From Maricaulis sp. (GTDB lineage Bacteria > Pseudomonadota > Alphaproteobacteria > Caulobacterales > Maricaulaceae): DNA of 64,000 bases. The stretch lies in contig JAEPND010000007.1 in NCBI GenBank assembly GCA_017643585.1, forward strand, positions 90,421 through 154,420. The letters are read 5' to 3'. Shown one piece after another: positions 13,286 to 59,200 of the stretch. Position 1 is the first letter of the stretch, and each line of letters opens with the position of its first letter. Under the pieces are notes generated by a model. The model searched no databases. It worked only from the letters and a program-made list of their open reading frames with translations, and was not told the origin of the DNA. Made by a program: the position numbers and the translations under genes.

Positions 13286-14067
13286 ATCCTCTCGTGCAGC
13301 GTTTGATGGACCGGGCTGCTGGCGAAGCGCTCGAAATCGTCCGCTTCTTTGGCGGTGTGATCGCCGTGTGGCTGGTTCTGGTCACCTTTATCTTTGCCGC
13401 TTTTCATATCCCGTCCGGCTCCATGAAGCCGAGCCTGGAAGTGGGCGATCGTGTGCTGGTGTCCAAATGGGCCTATGGCTATTCGCGTCACTCCCTGCCG
13501 CTGGGTATTGGCTATCTTTTGCCGAGCAGCTGGAATGGTCGCATCGCCTGGGCCGATCCTCAGCGCGGTGACGTCGTCGTGTTTCGCGATGAACGCCAGC
13601 GCGACGGGCGTCCACGCAATCTGATCAAGCGCGTGATCGGCATTGCCGGTGATACAATCGAAGTCCGTGATGGCAGGCTCTACATCAACGGCGAAGCGGC
13701 GCCGCGCGTGCTTGAAGAGGTCCGGACCTTCCGCGACGGCCGCAATGGCCCGCTGCGCACTGTGACGGCCTATTCCCAGGTCCTGCCCGGCGATATCGAG
13801 TTCGACATCTATGAAGTCTCTGACAATCACCCGGCTCCGGGCTGGTCACCTGATGACTATGGCCCGGTGACGGTGCTGCCGGGTACGGTGTTTGTGATGG
13901 GCGATAACCGCGATGCGTCCAATGACAGCCGCGCGCCGGACGGCCCGGGTCTCGTCCCGCTGGCCAATGTTGTCGGTCGCGCCGAAACCGTGATGTTCAC
14001 CATGGCGAGCTGTCGCCGTGAAGCGGATCTTTACTGTCCGACCGGCCGCGTCTGGAGAGGGCTCTAG
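13282..14067 (+). CDS. lepB: Signal peptidase I (first of tandem pair)
   Basis: 261 residues with one N-terminal transmembrane helix (about 20-41) and a periplasmic S26 catalytic domain. Ser47 in PSGSMKP is the nucleophile and Lys116 in LIKRVIG the general base; MGDNRDASNDSR is box E. It cleaves Sec and Tat signal peptides at the periplasmic face. The next gene is a close paralog three bases after the stop. The segment VSKWAYGYSRHSLPLG is identical in both copies, implying duplication. Confidence 0.95.
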   Translation: MNPLVQRLMDRAAGEALEIVRFFGGVIAVWLVLVTFIFAAFHIPSGSMKPSLEVGDRVLVSKWAYGYSRHSLPLGIGYLLPSSWNGRIAWADPQRGDVVVFRDERQRDGRPRNLIKRVIGIAGDTIEVRDGRLYINGEAAPRVLEEVRTFRDGRNGPLRTVTAYSQVLPGDIEFDIYEVSDNHPAPGWSPDDYGPVTVLPGTVFVMGDNRDASNDSRAPDGPGLVPLANVVGRAETVMFTMASCRREADLYCPTGRVWRGL

Positions 14068-14070
14068 GCC

Positions 14071-14850
14071 ATGTCCCGCACATTTCGAGTCTTGCGCAGA
14101 TTGCCCCGATGGGTGCGGGCAGGCTTGCGTGAAGGTATTGAGGCCGTTCGGTTTTTCTCGGGCGTTATCGCGATCTGGTTCGCCTGGACCTCGATCGCTT
14201 TCGCGACCTATTACATCCCCACGGAAAGCATGCAGCCCACCCTGGAAGTGGGTGACCGCATCATCGTGTCCAAATGGGCCTATGGCTATTCGCGGCATTC
14301 GTTGCCGCTGGGGCTGGGTGATGTGCTGCTCCCGGACTGGGACGGGCGTATCGGCTGGGCCGAGCCTCAGCGCGGTGACGTCATCGTACTGCAATCGCCC
14401 AGTGCTGACCTGGTGCTGATCAAGCGGGTGACCGGTGTGCCGGGGGATGTGGTGGAAGTTCGCGACGGGCGGCTGGTCATCAATGGCGATATGGTCGTGC
14501 GCGAGCAGAGCGAAATGCGCACCTATCGCCAGCACAATGGCATTCCGGCCGTTCTCGAGGTGATGGCCTTCGAAGAGGAATTGCCGGGCGGGCCGGTACA
14601 CTGGATCTATGAGCGTACGGACCGCCACCCGCTGGATGATTTCGGACCGGTACGCGTGCCGGACGGCCATGTTTTCCTGATGGGCGATAATCGCGACAAT
14701 TCCATCGACAGCCGGGCCCAGGGTGGACCGGGATTCGTTCCAATGGCGAATATTATCGGCCGCGCCGAGACGGTGCCGTTCACGCTGGAGCGCTGTCAGC
14801 GCGAGCCGGATCTTCATTGTCCGACAGGTCGGGTCTGGCGCCCGCTCTGA
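14071..14850 (+). CDS. Signal peptidase I (second of tandem pair)
   Basis: 259 residues, same architecture as the preceding gene: transmembrane helix at about 28-48, Ser53 in PTESMQP, Lys118 in LIKRVTG and MGDNRDNSIDSR, so all catalytic residues are kept. The catalytic Ser context (TESMQP versus SGSMKP) and the loop after the Lys differ from copy one, which may mean altered substrate range. The start is 3 bp after the lepB stop, with GGAGAGGG upstream. Confidence 0.93.
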   Translation: MSRTFRVLRRLPRWVRAGLREGIEAVRFFSGVIAIWFAWTSIAFATYYIPTESMQPTLEVGDRIIVSKWAYGYSRHSLPLGLGDVLLPDWDGRIGWAEPQRGDVIVLQSPSADLVLIKRVTGVPGDVVEVRDGRLVINGDMVVREQSEMRTYRQHNGIPAVLEVMAFEEELPGGPVHWIYERTDRHPLDDFGPVRVPDGHVFLMGDNRDNSIDSRAQGGPGFVPMANIIGRAETVPFTLERCQREPDLHCPTGRVWRPL

Positions 14851-23200: not shown

Positions 23201-24730
23201 TTACTGGCGGCGGGCGACTTGCCATTCGCCGTAGGCGTCGCGGCACATGCGAACCTCGTCGAGACGATAGGTGCCGTCCGGCATGTAAATCTCCGCATCA
23301 CCCCAGCGACATTCATTGCCGCCGTAACGATAATTCTCGCGGATGACGATCGAGCCACGGATGCCTGAATGCGGGTTGGCCCAGTAGTAAGGCTCGCCGT
23401 ATTCGAAGGCATAGTTCATCGCGTACTGGTACTGGGCGCGGTCACAATCATCGAACCGGTCAATGCTGTTGCCCAGGGCCGCGCCGAAGCCTGCACCCAG
23501 CAGGATGCCGACAGCGGTGTCATCGTCATTGGCGGCGGCGCCGCCGATGATGGCGCCGAGGATGGCTCCGATGACGGCGCCGTCATTATTGCCGTCATAG
23601 CGGCACAGGCCGTCATAATAGGCAAAGCGGCGGCGGTCATACCCGTGGTTATAATAGCGCGTGTGGTAGCGCCAGCGGCTGGACGGACCCCAGTGGCCGT
23701 AATAGCGCGAATTGCTCCAGCCGTGGTTCATGTGGCGGATCCAGCGGGTCTGCTGACGCAGGCGGCGCTGGTCCCGGTAGAAATCACGGCGACGTTCAGC
23801 GCGGCGCCAGCGGCGCTCATCCCGGCGATCGCGACGATATTCCCGCCGGTCCCGGCGGTTTTCCCAGCGGCGGTCCCGACGTTCTTCCCAGCGATGATCC
23901 CGGCGATCCCGGCGGGCTTCATAACGGTCCCGACGGTCTTCCCGACGATAGTCCCGGCGGTCCTCTCGACGATCGCGTCGCGTGTCACGACGGTCTTCGC
24001 GACGGTCCCGGCGGTTCTCAACGCGATCGCGGCGACGGTCCTGGCGGTCCTCTACACGGTCACGGCGCGTTTCCCGACGGTCTTCGCGACGATCCCGACG
24101 GTTTTCCACCCGGTCCCGGCGGTTGTCACGACGGGTCTCGCGACGGTTTTCCTGGTTGCGTTCGCGGTTGAACTGCTCGAAGGCCTCGCGGCGACGTTCG
24201 AAGCGATTGCTCGTGCCGCCAGCCGTTTCATTGGCGCGAACGCGTTCACGGTCGCGGCGCGCTTCGCCTCGTCCGCGATTATTCTGGATGCGGTCCTGGA
24301 CCTGTTCACGACGGTCCTGGCGCGCACCGCCACGGTTTTCACGGCGCTGCTGGCGGTTATCACCGCGGTTCTCGCGTCGTTGTTGTCGGTTTTCACCACG
24401 GTTTTCACGACGCTGTTCGCGGTTCTCGGAACGGTTTTCATTTCGACGTTGCTGGCGGTTTTCACCGCGGTTCTCACGGCGTTGCTGACGGTTTTCCGAA
24501 CGGCCTTCTCGTCGGTTCTGACGATTCTCGGCGCGGTTCTGGCGTCGTTCCTGCCGGTTTTCGCTGCGTCGCTCCTGATTGGCGCGAATGCGGCGTTCAT
24601 TGATTTCCTGCTGAACCTCGAAAGCAGCGTCGTCGACGATCGCGGACGCTTCCGCAGAGCCGATGAACATCACGGCGGGCAGCAGGGCGGCAGCCATTAG
24701 TGCGGCTTTGGAGAAGTGTTTCTGGTTCAT
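23201..24730 (-). CDS. Arginine-rich repeat secreted protein with glycine zipper
   Basis: 509 residues. Signal peptide about 1-28; then about 300 residues (45-340) made of Arg with Asn/Gln/Glu, later Arg with Asp/Glu, in short repeats such as RRENRGENRQQ and RRDRREDRRD; then an aromatic Tyr/Trp/His segment, a glycine zipper (384-420) and a C-terminal domain with NECRW, VRMCRD and GEWQVA resembling that of the neighbouring gene. Strongly basic, so it may bind anionic polymers (LPS, DNA, polyphosphate); that is inference. A long reading frame on the opposite strand is a by-product of codon bias. Confidence 0.8.
   Translation of the reverse strand: MNQKHFSKAALMAAALLPAVMFIGSAEASAIVDDAAFEVQQEINERRIRANQERRSENRQERRQNRAENRQNRREGRSENRQQRRENRGENRQQRRNENRSENREQRRENRGENRQQRRENRGDNRQQRRENRGGARQDRREQVQDRIQNNRGRGEARRDRERVRANETAGGTSNRFERRREAFEQFNRERNQENRRETRRDNRRDRVENRRDRREDRRETRRDRVEDRQDRRRDRVENRRDRREDRRDTRRDRREDRRDYRREDRRDRYEARRDRRDHRWEERRDRRWENRRDRREYRRDRRDERRWRRAERRRDFYRDQRRLRQQTRWIRHMNHGWSNSRYYGHWGPSSRWRYHTRYYNHGYDRRRFAYYDGLCRYDGNNDGAVIGAILGAIIGGAAANDDDTAVGILLGAGFGAALGNSIDRFDDCDRAQYQYAMNYAFEYGEPYYWANPHSGIRGSIVIRENYRYGGNECRWGDAEIYMPDGTYRLDEVRMCRDAYGEWQVARRQ
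23711..24598 (-). repeat. Degenerate tandem repeats encoding the arginine-rich region
   Basis: On the plus strand short units such as CGGTTTTC, CGACGGTC and CACGGCG recur at 9-15 base spacing. They encode (R/E/N)-rich then (R/D)-rich repeats. Period and unit vary, so this is coding low complexity and not a CRISPR or VNTR with fixed spacers. Prone to slippage. Confidence 0.7.
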
Positions 24731-52729: not shown

Positions 52730-52746
52730 GGGCAAGAGTCTTAAGC

Positions 52747-52860
52747 TTGTCATCCCGGACGAATGTCCCGCGAAAGCGGGACGCAGGTCTCGGACCTATC
52801 GCGCTTGCAGTTCCCCGCTCTCCGCCCCGGTCAAGCCGGGGCCTCCGGCGGGAATGACAA
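52747..52860. repeat. MITE/REP-like element with GIY-YIG unit ends (no gene)
   Basis: 114 bases starting TTGTCATCCC and ending GGGAATGACAA (inverted ends). The left half holds a perfect GTCCCGC-GAAA-GCGGGAC hairpin and the right half a GCCCCGG/CCGGGGC hairpin. Left and right halves match those of the 491-bp unit next door, but only 13 bases lie between them instead of the nuclease gene. Confidence 0.8.
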
Positions 52861-52934
52861 ACTGAGTAGGTTCCAGAGTTAATCTTGTCATCCCGGACGG
52901 ATGTCCCGCGAAAGCGGGACGCAGATCCGGGACC
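52810..52934 (+). repeat. 125-bp direct repeat, left copy
   Basis: Right end of the small element, the 24-base spacer and the left end of the nuclease unit. It matches 53325-53449 at 124 of 125 positions (the only difference is A versus G in GGGRATGACAA). Confidence 0.9.
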
Positions 52935-53375
52935 TCTACGCTATCGATGCCGTTCCCGCATCCGCAATCCGGCGGGCACGATTTCGTCAGGGTCCGCGCC
53001 GCCCAGCTCAAAATAGAGATCACGCCACTGCGGGTTGGAATGTTCGATCAGTTCGATCTTCCAAGCCCTTCTCCAGCGTTTGATTCGCTTCTCGCGCGTG
53101 ATCGCATTGTTGATGAGTTCGTGGCTTTCAAACCAGACCAGCCGGGTCACGTTGTACCGGGCTGTAAAACCCTGCTCCGTCTTGGTCTTGTGTTGGTAGA
53201 CACGCCCCAGCAGATCATTGGTGACGCCGCAATACAGCGTCCCATGTCGTTTCGAGGCGAGCAGGTAGACGAAATACATGCGGCAATTATAGATTGCATC
53301 GTGTATTTCGTCACGCATCGCGTGGTTCCCCGCTCTCCGCCCCGGTCAAGCCGGGGCCTCCGGCGGGGATGACAA
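52885..53375. mobile_element. GIY-YIG nuclease unit with inverted ends
   Basis: 491 bases from TTGTCATCCC (52885-52894) to GGGGATGACAA (ending 53375). The ends are inverted over 10 bases. Inside are the left hairpin (GTCCCGC-GAAA-GCGGGAC, 52903-52920), the nuclease gene on the minus strand and the right hairpin region (53340-53358). Flanked on both sides by the same 24-base spacer (52861-52884 and 53376-53399). No target-site duplication can be separated from the spacer repeat. That this unit is or was mobile is inference. Confidence 0.6.
52941..53279 (-). CDS. GIY-YIG nuclease family protein (COG2827-like)
   Basis: 112 residues starting MYFVYLLASKRHGTLYCGVT, a single GIY-YIG domain (YFVYLL...LYCGVT), with Arg in GRVYQH, the Glu/Lys-rich ITREKRIKRWRR segment and a short tail. 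Such one-domain proteins resemble the UvrC/homing nuclease core but their biological role is unclear. The ATG at 53279 gives the canonical N-terminus; 13 codons upstream are open but lie toward the repeat. The stop is 7 bases from the left-end repeat, whose hairpin may act as terminator. Confidence 0.88.
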   Translation of the reverse strand: MYFVYLLASKRHGTLYCGVTNDLLGRVYQHKTKTEQGFTARYNVTRLVWFESHELINNAITREKRIKRWRRAWKIELIEHSNPQWRDLYFELGGADPDEIVPAGLRMRERHR

Positions 53376-53449
53376 ACTGAGTAGGTTCCAGAGTTAATCT
53401 TGTCATCCCGGACGGATGTCCCGCGAAAGCGGGACGCAGATCCGGGACC
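53325..53449 (+). repeat. 125-bp direct repeat, right copy
   Basis: Right end of the nuclease unit, spacer, and a third left end. It is 515 bases from the left copy with one mismatch, so homologous recombination between them would delete the nuclease gene. Confidence 0.9.
53400..53449 (+). repeat. Solo left end of the same element
   Basis: 50 bases equal to 52885-52934: TTGTCATCCC, the GAAA-loop hairpin and GATCCGGGACC. No right end follows. It ends 97 bases before the DUF2336 gene start, so its hairpin lies in that gene's promoter or leader region. Confidence 0.8.
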
Positions 53450-53546
53450 CGAGGGCCGACACTTTCCCAACAATCCACCCCCGCCCGCGCACGCTTTCTT
53501 AACACCACACGGCCAGTCTGCTTGTGAACAATACGGACCCAGCCCG

Positions 53547-57677: not shown

Positions 57678-59200
57678 TGGATTTTCTGGTCAATCTTCTT
57701 CCTTCCGGACTGGCTCACCACGCTCCGGCGCTGGTGATTGTCATCCCGCTCGTCGCCGCGGCTGTCGCAGCGCTGATGCCAAACGGCCGTCTCGGCTGGA
57801 TCGTTGCCATGGTCACAGCCTCGCTGGTGGCCTTCTTCTCGCTTGTCGTCCTTGGCCTGGTGCTGAGCGACGGGCTGATCAGCTATCACATGGGGGGCTG
57901 GGAGCCGCCCTATGGCATCGAGCTGCGTGTTGATGCGCTCAACGCCGTCGTCCTCGCCCTTGTCGGGGTGATGGGACTGCTCTGTGTGATCTTTGCCCTG
58001 CCCAGCGTGGGTGACGAGATCGAAGAGGGCAAGCAGGCGCTCTTCTACTCCGCCTTCCTGGTGGCGCTGGCTGGTCTGCTCGGTGTGACGATCACGGGCG
58101 ATGCCTTCAACGTCTTTGTCTTCCTCGAGATCTCCTCGATCTCGACCTACACCATCATCGCCATGGGCGCCGGCAAGGATCGCCGCGCCCTGACCGCGTC
58201 CTACAACTACCTCATCCTCGGCACGATCGGCGCGACCTTCTTCGTGATCGGTGTCGGTTTCCTCTACATGGCGACCGGTTCGCTCAACATGGCCGATATC
58301 GGCCAGATCCTGCAGGAACAGGGGTATAACCGGGTCACCCAGGCGGCCTTTGCCTTCATCGTGGTCGGGCTGGGCCTGAAGGCCGCGATGTTCCCGCTGC
58401 ATGTCTGGCTGCCCAATGCCTATGCGTTCGCACCGAATTTCGTGACGGCCTTCCTGGCGTCGACAGCGACCAAGGTCGCCTTCTACGCCCTGATCCGCTT
58501 TCTCTTCTCGGTCTTCCACCCGGATGTAGCCTTTGTCGAACTGTCCTTCACCTGGGTCTTCGCAGCCGTTGGCGTCATCGCCATGATGGTGGCGTCCAGC
58601 CAGGCAATCTTCCAGACCGATGCGCGGCGTCTGCTCGCCTATTCCTCTGTTGCCCAGGTGGGCTACATGATGCTGGGTCTGGGCATGGGGACGGCGGCAG
58701 GCCTGTCGGCCGGTATCCTGCACCTGATCAATCACGCCATCATGAAGGGCGCGCTGTTCATGGCGCTCGGCGCGTTTGCGCTGCATTTCGGCGTCCGTCA
58801 GATCCGTGACCTCAACGGTCTTGGCCGCACCATGCCGGCGTCGGCAGGGGCGTTCACCATTGCCGGCCTGTCGCTGGTCGGTGTGCCGCTGACGATCGGC
58901 TTTACCTCGAAATGGTATCTCATCACCGCAGCGCTGGAGCGCGGCTGGTGGTGGGCGGTGGCCGCCCTGATCATCTCCTCGCTGATGGCGCTGGCCTATG
59001 TGGCTCGTATGCTCTCGGCGATCTGGATGGAAAGCCCGCCAGAACATCACGGTGCCAAGCCCGCCGCGCGTCATGCGTTTTACATGGTGCTGGTGCCGAT
59101 GGGCATCCTGGCCTTTGCCAATCTGTATTTCTTCTTCCACGCCGATGTTCTGGTCGGTCTGGCCGAGGCTGCGGCGAACGCCGTGACGGGAGGGCATTAA
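57677..59200 (+). CDS. mrpD: Mrp-type antiporter subunit D (first large antiporter-like subunit)
   Basis: 507 residues, about 14 helices, proton_antipo_M family (NuoL/M/N-like). Visible are the Glu of VFVFLEISSISTYTIIAMG near residue 153, Lys of GLGLKAAMFPLHVWLPNAYA near residue 234, and LLAYSSVAQVGYMMLGLGMG near 330. One of three homologous large subunits here. TAATG overlap with mrpC; 3 bp gap to the next. Confidence 0.95.
   Translation: MDFLVNLLPSGLAHHAPALVIVIPLVAAAVAALMPNGRLGWIVAMVTASLVAFFSLVVLGLVLSDGLISYHMGGWEPPYGIELRVDALNAVVLALVGVMGLLCVIFALPSVGDEIEEGKQALFYSAFLVALAGLLGVTITGDAFNVFVFLEISSISTYTIIAMGAGKDRRALTASYNYLILGTIGATFFVIGVGFLYMATGSLNMADIGQILQEQGYNRVTQAAFAFIVVGLGLKAAMFPLHVWLPNAYAFAPNFVTAFLASTATKVAFYALIRFLFSVFHPDVAFVELSFTWVFAAVGVIAMMVASSQAIFQTDARRLLAYSSVAQVGYMMLGLGMGTAAGLSAGILHLINHAIMKGALFMALGAFALHFGVRQIRDLNGLGRTMPASAGAFTIAGLSLVGVPLTIGFTSKWYLITAALERGWWWAVAALIISSLMALAYVARMLSAIWMESPPEHHGAKPAARHAFYMVLVPMGILAFANLYFFFHADVLVGLAEAAANAVTGGH

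Follow-up and report, generated by a model that had tools for sequence, protein, structure and literature searches.

One-domain GIY-YIG nuclease genes are associated, gene by gene, with CGTC-type REP palindromes in a Maricaulis genome and across bacteria

Introduction

An intergenic locus of Maricaulis sp. carries a gene for a small GIY-YIG nuclease between inverted palindromes and, next to it, the same palindromes without a gene. The question raised by this arrangement is whether the nuclease is the enzyme that serves the repeats. Palindromes of the CGTC type are known from five phyla, including the dRS3 repeats of Neisseria and the RPE repeats of Rickettsia, and were described as REPs that "apparently lack a dedicated transposase" (Di Nocera et al. 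2013, PMC3733652). The accessible part of that paper reports no associated transposase and does not mention "GIY"; the accessible part of a 2025 REP survey (PMC12306157) contains none of the words "transposase", "nuclease" or "RAYT", and in that of a GIY-YIG survey (PMC1564403) we found no link to REPs. Among the matches listed by our literature search, whose scope stopped short of bioRxiv and most subscription papers, none joined one-domain GIY-YIG genes with REPs. For Caulobacter, the available text of PMC1839093 describes three small COG2827 genes and leaves their role open.

Results

A tandem array of hairpin ends surrounds a one-domain GIY-YIG gene

The window, that is, the whole 64-kb stretch of DNA analysed here, holds the locus in intergenic DNA with a DoxX_2 gene on one side and a DUF2336 gene on the other (Pfam). 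Its features are as follows.

52747..52797, plus strand: left-end palindrome, copy 1, of the gene-less unit; direct repeat D2; hairpin z -2.15
52810..52860, minus strand: right-end palindrome, copy 1, closing the 114-bp gene-less unit; 125-bp direct repeat D1
52861..52884, no strand: 24-bp spacer, first copy, identical to 53376-53399; within D1
52885..52936, plus strand: left-end palindrome, copy 2, opening the 491-bp unit; direct repeat; z -3.66
52941..53279, minus strand: one-domain GIY-YIG nuclease gene (start possibly 53318); PF01541; AF2 model pLDDT 89.8
53325..53375, minus strand: right-end palindrome, copy 2, closing the 491-bp unit; direct repeat; z -3.92
53376..53399, no strand: 24-bp spacer, second copy; within D1
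53400..53451, plus strand: left-end palindrome, copy 3 (solo); direct repeat; z -3.53

A preliminary description, made from the letters of the window, had proposed a one-domain GIY-YIG gene within a 491-bp unit whose inverted ends carry TTGTCATCCC, a 114-bp unit with the same two ends and no gene, and a third, solo left end. All three are real, at 52885-53375, at 52747-52860 and at 53400, with left-end copies beginning at 52747, 52885 and 53400 on the plus strand and inverted right-end copies finishing at 52860 and 53375. The window contains five copies of TTGTCATCCC against 0.13 expected, a number that none of 100 shuffles reached, and four of the five are heads of the locus ends. We folded four ends as single-stranded DNA: three gave z-scores of -3.5 to -3.9, and the first (52745-52800), which has an altered outer stem, gave -2.15. 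The ends form a two-level hairpin terminating in CCT or CCC, where the CGTC REP tail is usually CCA. The block made of right end, 24-bp spacer and left end is a 125-bp direct repeat (52810-52934 and 53325-53449, 99% identity), so the locus is a tandem array of the form L-R-spacer-L-gene-R-spacer-L.

The fifth TTGTCATCCC, at 57738-57747, lies in no visible palindrome. Elsewhere in the window, 23201-24730 (minus strand) encodes a 509-aa protein with a long repetitive region rich in Arg, Glu, Asn and Asp and a glycine-zipper 2TM domain, and two direct repeats (72% and 86% identity) lie 807 bp from each other at 13393-13580 and 14200-14387; they are possibly tandem paralogous genes.

The GIY-YIG protein

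The open reading frame (minus strand, stop 52941, start 53279 or 53318) matched PF01541 with 55.7 bits (cut-off 22.6), the only match that the profile search found in the protein, which makes it a member of the GIY-YIG superfamily. An alignment of 29 sequences showed R26, H30, E63 and N82 to be invariant and Y5 and Y16 nearly so; we take these six to be the catalytic-type residues of GIY-YIG enzymes. The AF2 model is confident (mean pLDDT 89.8). By sequence, the nearest solved structures are the small UPF0213 GIY-YIG proteins 1zg2 (3.9e-9) and 1ywl (2.1e-5), for which we know of no function. Foldseek likewise placed 1zg2 at the top (8.2e-4), followed by Slx1 entries with weak E-values of at least 0.12. 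PHROGs and PADLOC returned no family for the three one-domain GIY-YIG proteins of the source genome, hence no phage or defence match, and NCBIfam and Rfam gave no match. The one-domain genes are under purifying selection, with dN/dS of 0.01-0.15 in 15 of 16 gene pairs from the genus and 0.41 in the least diverged pair.

Repeats of the source genome

The source genome (G000; 3.10 Mb, 46 contigs) has four PF01541 matches, one in a UvrC-length frame and three in one-domain genes, and all three full-length one-domain genes are flanked on both sides by GTCATCCC-headed palindromes. The stems differ from gene to gene (the two-level hairpin in the window, CCCAACG at L001, CCCGACG at L003), and an unpaired CGTC/TGTC head is present at each, TGTC in the window and CGTC at the two other loci. 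A check proposed in the preliminary description, a search for the ends in the rest of the genome, came out in its favour, with eight gene-less dimers of the window class and one single end at other places. One dimer (L014) is common to the closest relative, G010, and its two sides are not syntenic in other genomes. No match to Y1_Tnp was found in G000. A further partial GIY-YIG match, at C42:63661-63831, may be a remnant. The genome also holds five copies of a short REP type, GTCATCCCTGCGAAGGCAGGGACCCA (C6, C11, C33). Their stem is unlike that of the REPs at any of the three GIY-YIG genes, and they may be an orphan family.

Related species have the sites empty

The DoxX_2 and DUF2336 genes are adjacent in 15 other genomes of the genus, and in 13 of these the gap between them measures 67-137 bp and contains no such repeat. 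The gap of G014 holds a dimer of the window type, while that of the similar G013 spans 83 bp with no dimer; in G010 a different palindrome occupies the gap. Empty sites in related species, which the preliminary description had put forward as a check, were therefore found. We examined a second site, that of the L018 dimer, in 17 relatives: four were empty or nearly so, three carried a GTCAT dimer, six another repeat class, and four were unresolved (L299, L305, L307, L308). The segment absent from G010 at this site includes ~450 bp besides the dimer. Comparison of occupied and empty sites gave no clean joints, and it established neither a target-site duplication nor the exact point of insertion. 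Presence and absence at these sites are more simply read as gain; the empty ones could be deletions. The repeat class at the L018 spot in L296-L298, L303, L304 and L306 is CCTTGATGGGGAAGGTGG-like, as if this spot drew several repeat families.

Whole units at non-orthologous loci and clade-specific heads in the genus

Across 19 genomes of the genus, non-UvrC matches to PF01541 range from none (G011) to seven (G003, G009), and a UvrC-length frame is present in 18 of them, with a shorter one in G007. For some of these GIY-YIG genes the locus is orthologous between several species; for others, nothing beyond the REP-gene-REP unit is shared. Homology between L035 and L058 starts at CCACCGTCATCC and stops at GGATGACGGTGG, with unrelated DNA outside, and that between L032 and L051 starts 5-6 bases ahead of the GTCAT head. 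The boundaries of the units thus coincide with REP heads at non-orthologous loci.

The type of head follows the type of protein. Counted with a loose GTCAT regex and a TTTCCC regex devised after viewing the flanks concerned, "GVT" genes have GTCAT/CTCAT-type heads on both sides in 26 of 34 cases, on at least one side in 33, and TTTCCC heads on both sides in none, while "GRT" genes have TTTCCC heads on both sides in seven of nine, on at least one side in all nine, and GTCAT heads on both sides in one. These counts cover 43 of the 49 non-UvrC PF01541 matches of the genus, omitting L055 (another subfamily), one gene of the L048/L065 tandem pair, and L034, L037, L044 and L052, missed by the alignment HMM. 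The GRT-type paralogues were considered as a negative control and dropped: the GTC detector scored two of their 10 entries, yet their own flanks matched in 90% (59% when swapped), because the palindromes around them are of a different class, headed by TTTCCC. GRT-type genes between TTTCCC-headed palindromes are found at L057, L059, L062, L063 and L065-L068, and apparently form a second nuclease-repeat pairing.

The strict GTC detector found no hairpin at 10 of 35 genus entries. A comparison of flanks free of any motif showed that the two flanks of a gene match in 71% of 34 cases, against 24% when swapped. A pattern with a fixed 12-base gap, the wrong spacing for these repeats, matched once in the 19 genomes, and a variable gap was used instead.

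Hairpins flank relatives of the gene in the class and in other phyla

In 190 alphaproteobacterial genomes the gene is present in 55 (E <= 1e-15), at 103 places, of which 89 were used for flank analysis after omission of four in G000 and the 10 weakest others. A GTCAYYCC regex missed 47 of the 89 genes, and many of the missed flanks show other GTC-headed palindromes; we therefore adopted a structural detector and the motif-free comparison. The first detector (GTC head, stem of at least 7, CCA tail), designed after viewing the class flanks, found hairpins near 56 of the 89 genes (both sides 37, one side 19, neither 33), at a density of 2.40/kb near the genes, 0.30/kb far from them and 0.06/kb in shuffled sequence. 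In the motif-free comparison of 88 genes, the two own flanks scored above the 99% level of shuffled sequence for 70%; swapped pairs did so in 7%, and 26 of the 88 genes had unmatched flanks.

An all-bacteria set, the best 80 of at least 590 matches to a protein pattern, was gathered later and by protein, and so provides an independent check of this detector. A GTC-stem-loop-CCA hairpin lies at most 350 bp from 74 of these best 80 genes (both sides 53, one side 21, neither six), at 3.84/kb near against 0.217/kb far. For 77 of the 80 (three loci with short flanks were omitted), own flanks match in 84%, random placements (n = 616) in 3.7% and swapped flanks in 31%; the last figure reflects one repeat type being common. 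With densities restricted to noncoding DNA, the excess is 14-fold in the class (3.47 vs 0.24/kb) and 9-fold among the best 80 of at least 590 (6.19 vs 0.67/kb). Controls were swapped flanks, random placements, distant flanks and these noncoding-only densities; UvrC loci are too short to serve as a two-sided flank control. Sixteen loci were printed, and palindromes stand on both sides in Vampirovibrionales, Chloroflexi, Rhodothermales, Nitrospira, Desulfobacterales, Calditrichota and Shapirobacteria, and downstream only in two Planctomycetota records and an Elusimicrobia record; since many of the all-bacteria records are metagenome bins, the taxon titles may err. An association of the ends with GIY-YIG genes, raised as a check at the outset, holds in the source genome, in the genus, in the class and across phyla.

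A second detector, applied to the class set and the best 80 together (169 genes), placed hairpins on both sides of 96 genes, oriented >gene< in 61, <gene> in 20, >gene> in nine and <gene< in six. The >gene< unit has a median length of 390 bp (344-610). Among 367 GTC-anchored hairpins near relatives, GTCAT occurs in 301, CGTC in 225 and TGTC in 115, the loop is 4 or 5 in 279 and a CCA tail is present in 250. The general unit is a palindrome with a constant GTC head, a usual CCA tail and a gene-specific stem, with the gene within or between dimers.

Other GIY-YIG types have surroundings of their own. At L160 and L168 (G181) another type lies between CCCTTCG / TTCGACAAGCTCAGG-like palindromes, and at L161 and L169 (G099) a further type lies by apparent tRNA genes, judged by eye, and a long CCTTCGCTCGCTTCGCAAGC-like palindrome.

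Genes match their own repeats, and repeat-rich genomes carry the gene

Twelve genomes chosen for multiple copies contribute 53 genes to a comparison of paralogues. Scores had a median of 28 for the two flanks of one gene and of 9 for flanks of different paralogues within a genome, and 77% of own against 17% of cross comparisons passed the threshold (Mann-Whitney p = 1.8e-17, with pairs treated as independent). This test keeps the genome background constant and is thus the strongest single argument for cognate pairs.

We called a genome repeat-rich when it had at least five matches of GTCATYCC-N(8-38)-GGRAYCCA, a pattern whose backward control gave 0 or 1 per strand. The gene is present in 31 of 39 repeat-rich and 24 of 151 other alphaproteobacterial genomes (odds ratio 20, p = 1e-13), the 24 being genomes with the gene and fewer than five pattern matches; with one genome per family the counts are 24 of 30 and 20 of 117. 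Eight repeat-rich genomes lack the gene: two of them encode one-domain GIY-YIG proteins of other kinds, and in six the only matches are UvrC-length, two of these six being less than 90% complete. Y1_Tnp is found in 14 of the 39 repeat-rich and 30 of the 151 other genomes (odds ratio 2.3, p = 0.05), a weak link between IS200/RAYT-type transposases and repeat richness. Together, the data strongly support an association, gene by gene, of one-domain GIY-YIG nucleases with CGTC-type REPs.

Discussion

The repeats fit the "CGTC" REP superfamily. In the available part of its description (PMC3733652) these REPs have a CGTC/TGTC head, usually a CCA tail, a stem of 8-9 bp and a loop of 4-5, form head-to-head dimers and occur mainly in Alphaproteobacteria. 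Our repeats share the head, the dimers and the main occurrence and agree in part in stem, loop and tail; the window class differs in being longer, with an inner hairpin. The closest parallel in organisation is the REPtron, in which a RAYT/TnpA_REP gene is accompanied by GTAG-tagged REPs and REPINs. As far as the accessible text of PMC3116915 and PMC8266576 goes, both systems have a gene flanked by its own REP class, a conserved head followed by a hairpin, REPs in inverted pairs, and gene-less dimers dispersed in intergenic DNA. For Pseudomonas, deep sequencing of populations has been used to follow the loss and gain of REPINs (PMC3116915). The parallel to REP sequences and RAYT enzymes, drawn in the preliminary description, is supported by the gene lying between its own REP class and by the dispersed gene-less dimers. 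In contrast to REPtrons, the enzyme has a GIY-YIG and not an HUH/Y1 fold, the head is GTC(AT) or TTTCCC and not GTAG, and there are several genes per genome, in variable copy number, with the gene often within the dimer. The system would thus act in the manner of a REPtron, yet it stands outside that family, because enzyme and head motif differ; membership of RAYT/TnpA_REP was rejected with no HUH/Y1 domain and no GTAG head present. Pairs of insertion sequences and MITEs also combine a gene-bearing unit with gene-less units that share its inverted ends, but here the ends are hairpins, the unit is ~350-610 bp long and no transposase domain was found; an insertion sequence with MITEs was likewise set aside as no known transposase domain was found at the locus. 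A homing endonuclease was rejected as well, since the gene is intergenic, not in an intron or intein, and whole units recur at non-homologous loci.

We consider it probable that the GIY-YIG gene forms, with the palindromes on its two sides, a REP-associated nuclease system whose protein is dedicated to one cognate REP class, which it nicks and helps to spread. The observations behind this reading are the association, the gene-by-gene specificity, the presence and absence of dimers at orthologous sites and the purifying selection; binding of the REP, its cutting, and its copying by host repair or template switching are what we infer from them. The nuclease would recognise the unpaired GTC(AT) head and the hairpin of its own REP class, probably on a hairpin extruded in single-stranded DNA, and would nick beside the head or hairpin. 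We know of no strand joining by GIY-YIG enzymes. Host repair, replication or template switching may then copy REP dimers to new intergenic sites and, more rarely, the gene-bearing unit in the same way, so that ">REP-gene-REP<" would be the autonomous form and the gene-less dimers its non-autonomous progeny. The pattern of an autonomous element with an internally deleted derivative, which had been suggested from the window, is supported in outline, and as a general one, by the recurrence of the ends, their association with GIY-YIG genes and the empty sites.

The nuclease and its hairpins might instead be a functional pair with no part in mobility, the enzyme trimming or resolving extruded REP hairpins in repair or replication, as Slx1 might, or the hairpins regulating the nuclease transcript, while the REPs spread by other means. 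The constraint on the genes and the position of Slx1 entries directly after UPF0213 in the structural comparison, at weak E-values of at least 0.12, would suit such a role. We regard it as unlikely, given that copy number varies from 0 to 7 per genome within one genus, that whole REP-gene-REP units stand at non-orthologous loci and that each paralogue has a separate repeat, features that look like an element with its enzyme and not like housekeeping.

It is very unlikely, in our estimate, that a RAYT/Y1 or other transposase moves the repeats in trans with the GIY-YIG gene as cargo: the slightly higher frequency of Y1_Tnp in repeat-rich genomes (14/39 vs 30/151, p = 0.05) speaks for it, but 25 of the 39 have no Y1_Tnp, G000 has dispersed dimers and no Y1_Tnp match, and tyrosine-transposase genes are reported, in the accessible text of PMC3733652, not to be flanked by CGTC repeats. 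Least likely of all is chance or hitchhiking, in which REPs simply accumulate in the long intergenic flanks of short genes, or the gene inserts into REPs. Some insertion sequences are known to land in REPs (PMC1525189, in its available part), and a common repeat type does explain part of the matching, as the 31% swapped-flank rate (77 of the best 80 of at least 590) indicates. Against this stand the noncoding-only excess in the class and in the best 80 of at least 590, the contrast of own and cross flanks inside one genome, the head type that tracks the protein clade, and REPs that are whole on both sides, with none split.

Returning to the REP-associated nuclease reading, the recurring pairing of gene and repeat suggests that a common class of bacterial repeats owes its spread to the GIY-YIG enzyme, its hitherto missing partner. 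The chances seem to us evenly balanced for the wider proposal that enzymes able to mobilise REPs evolved a second time, independently, as stand-alone GIY-YIG nucleases, that their 350-610 bp units are among the smallest autonomous mobile elements, and that their clades serve different palindrome superfamilies (GTCAT, TTTCCC, possibly TTCGACAAGCTCAGG-type). The repeat that matches a candidate enzyme can be read beside its gene, and the mover of CGTC REPs thereby becomes directly testable. If the proposal is true, REP-type repeats would have arisen with two unrelated enzymes, a RAYT-like system having been built on an unrelated nuclease, and the common annotation "GIY-YIG nuclease family protein" would gain a role. 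It would also help to account for the spread of short repeats in intergenic DNA, and many of the short palindromes in bacterial genomes that so far lack an explanation would be put down to a single protein family.
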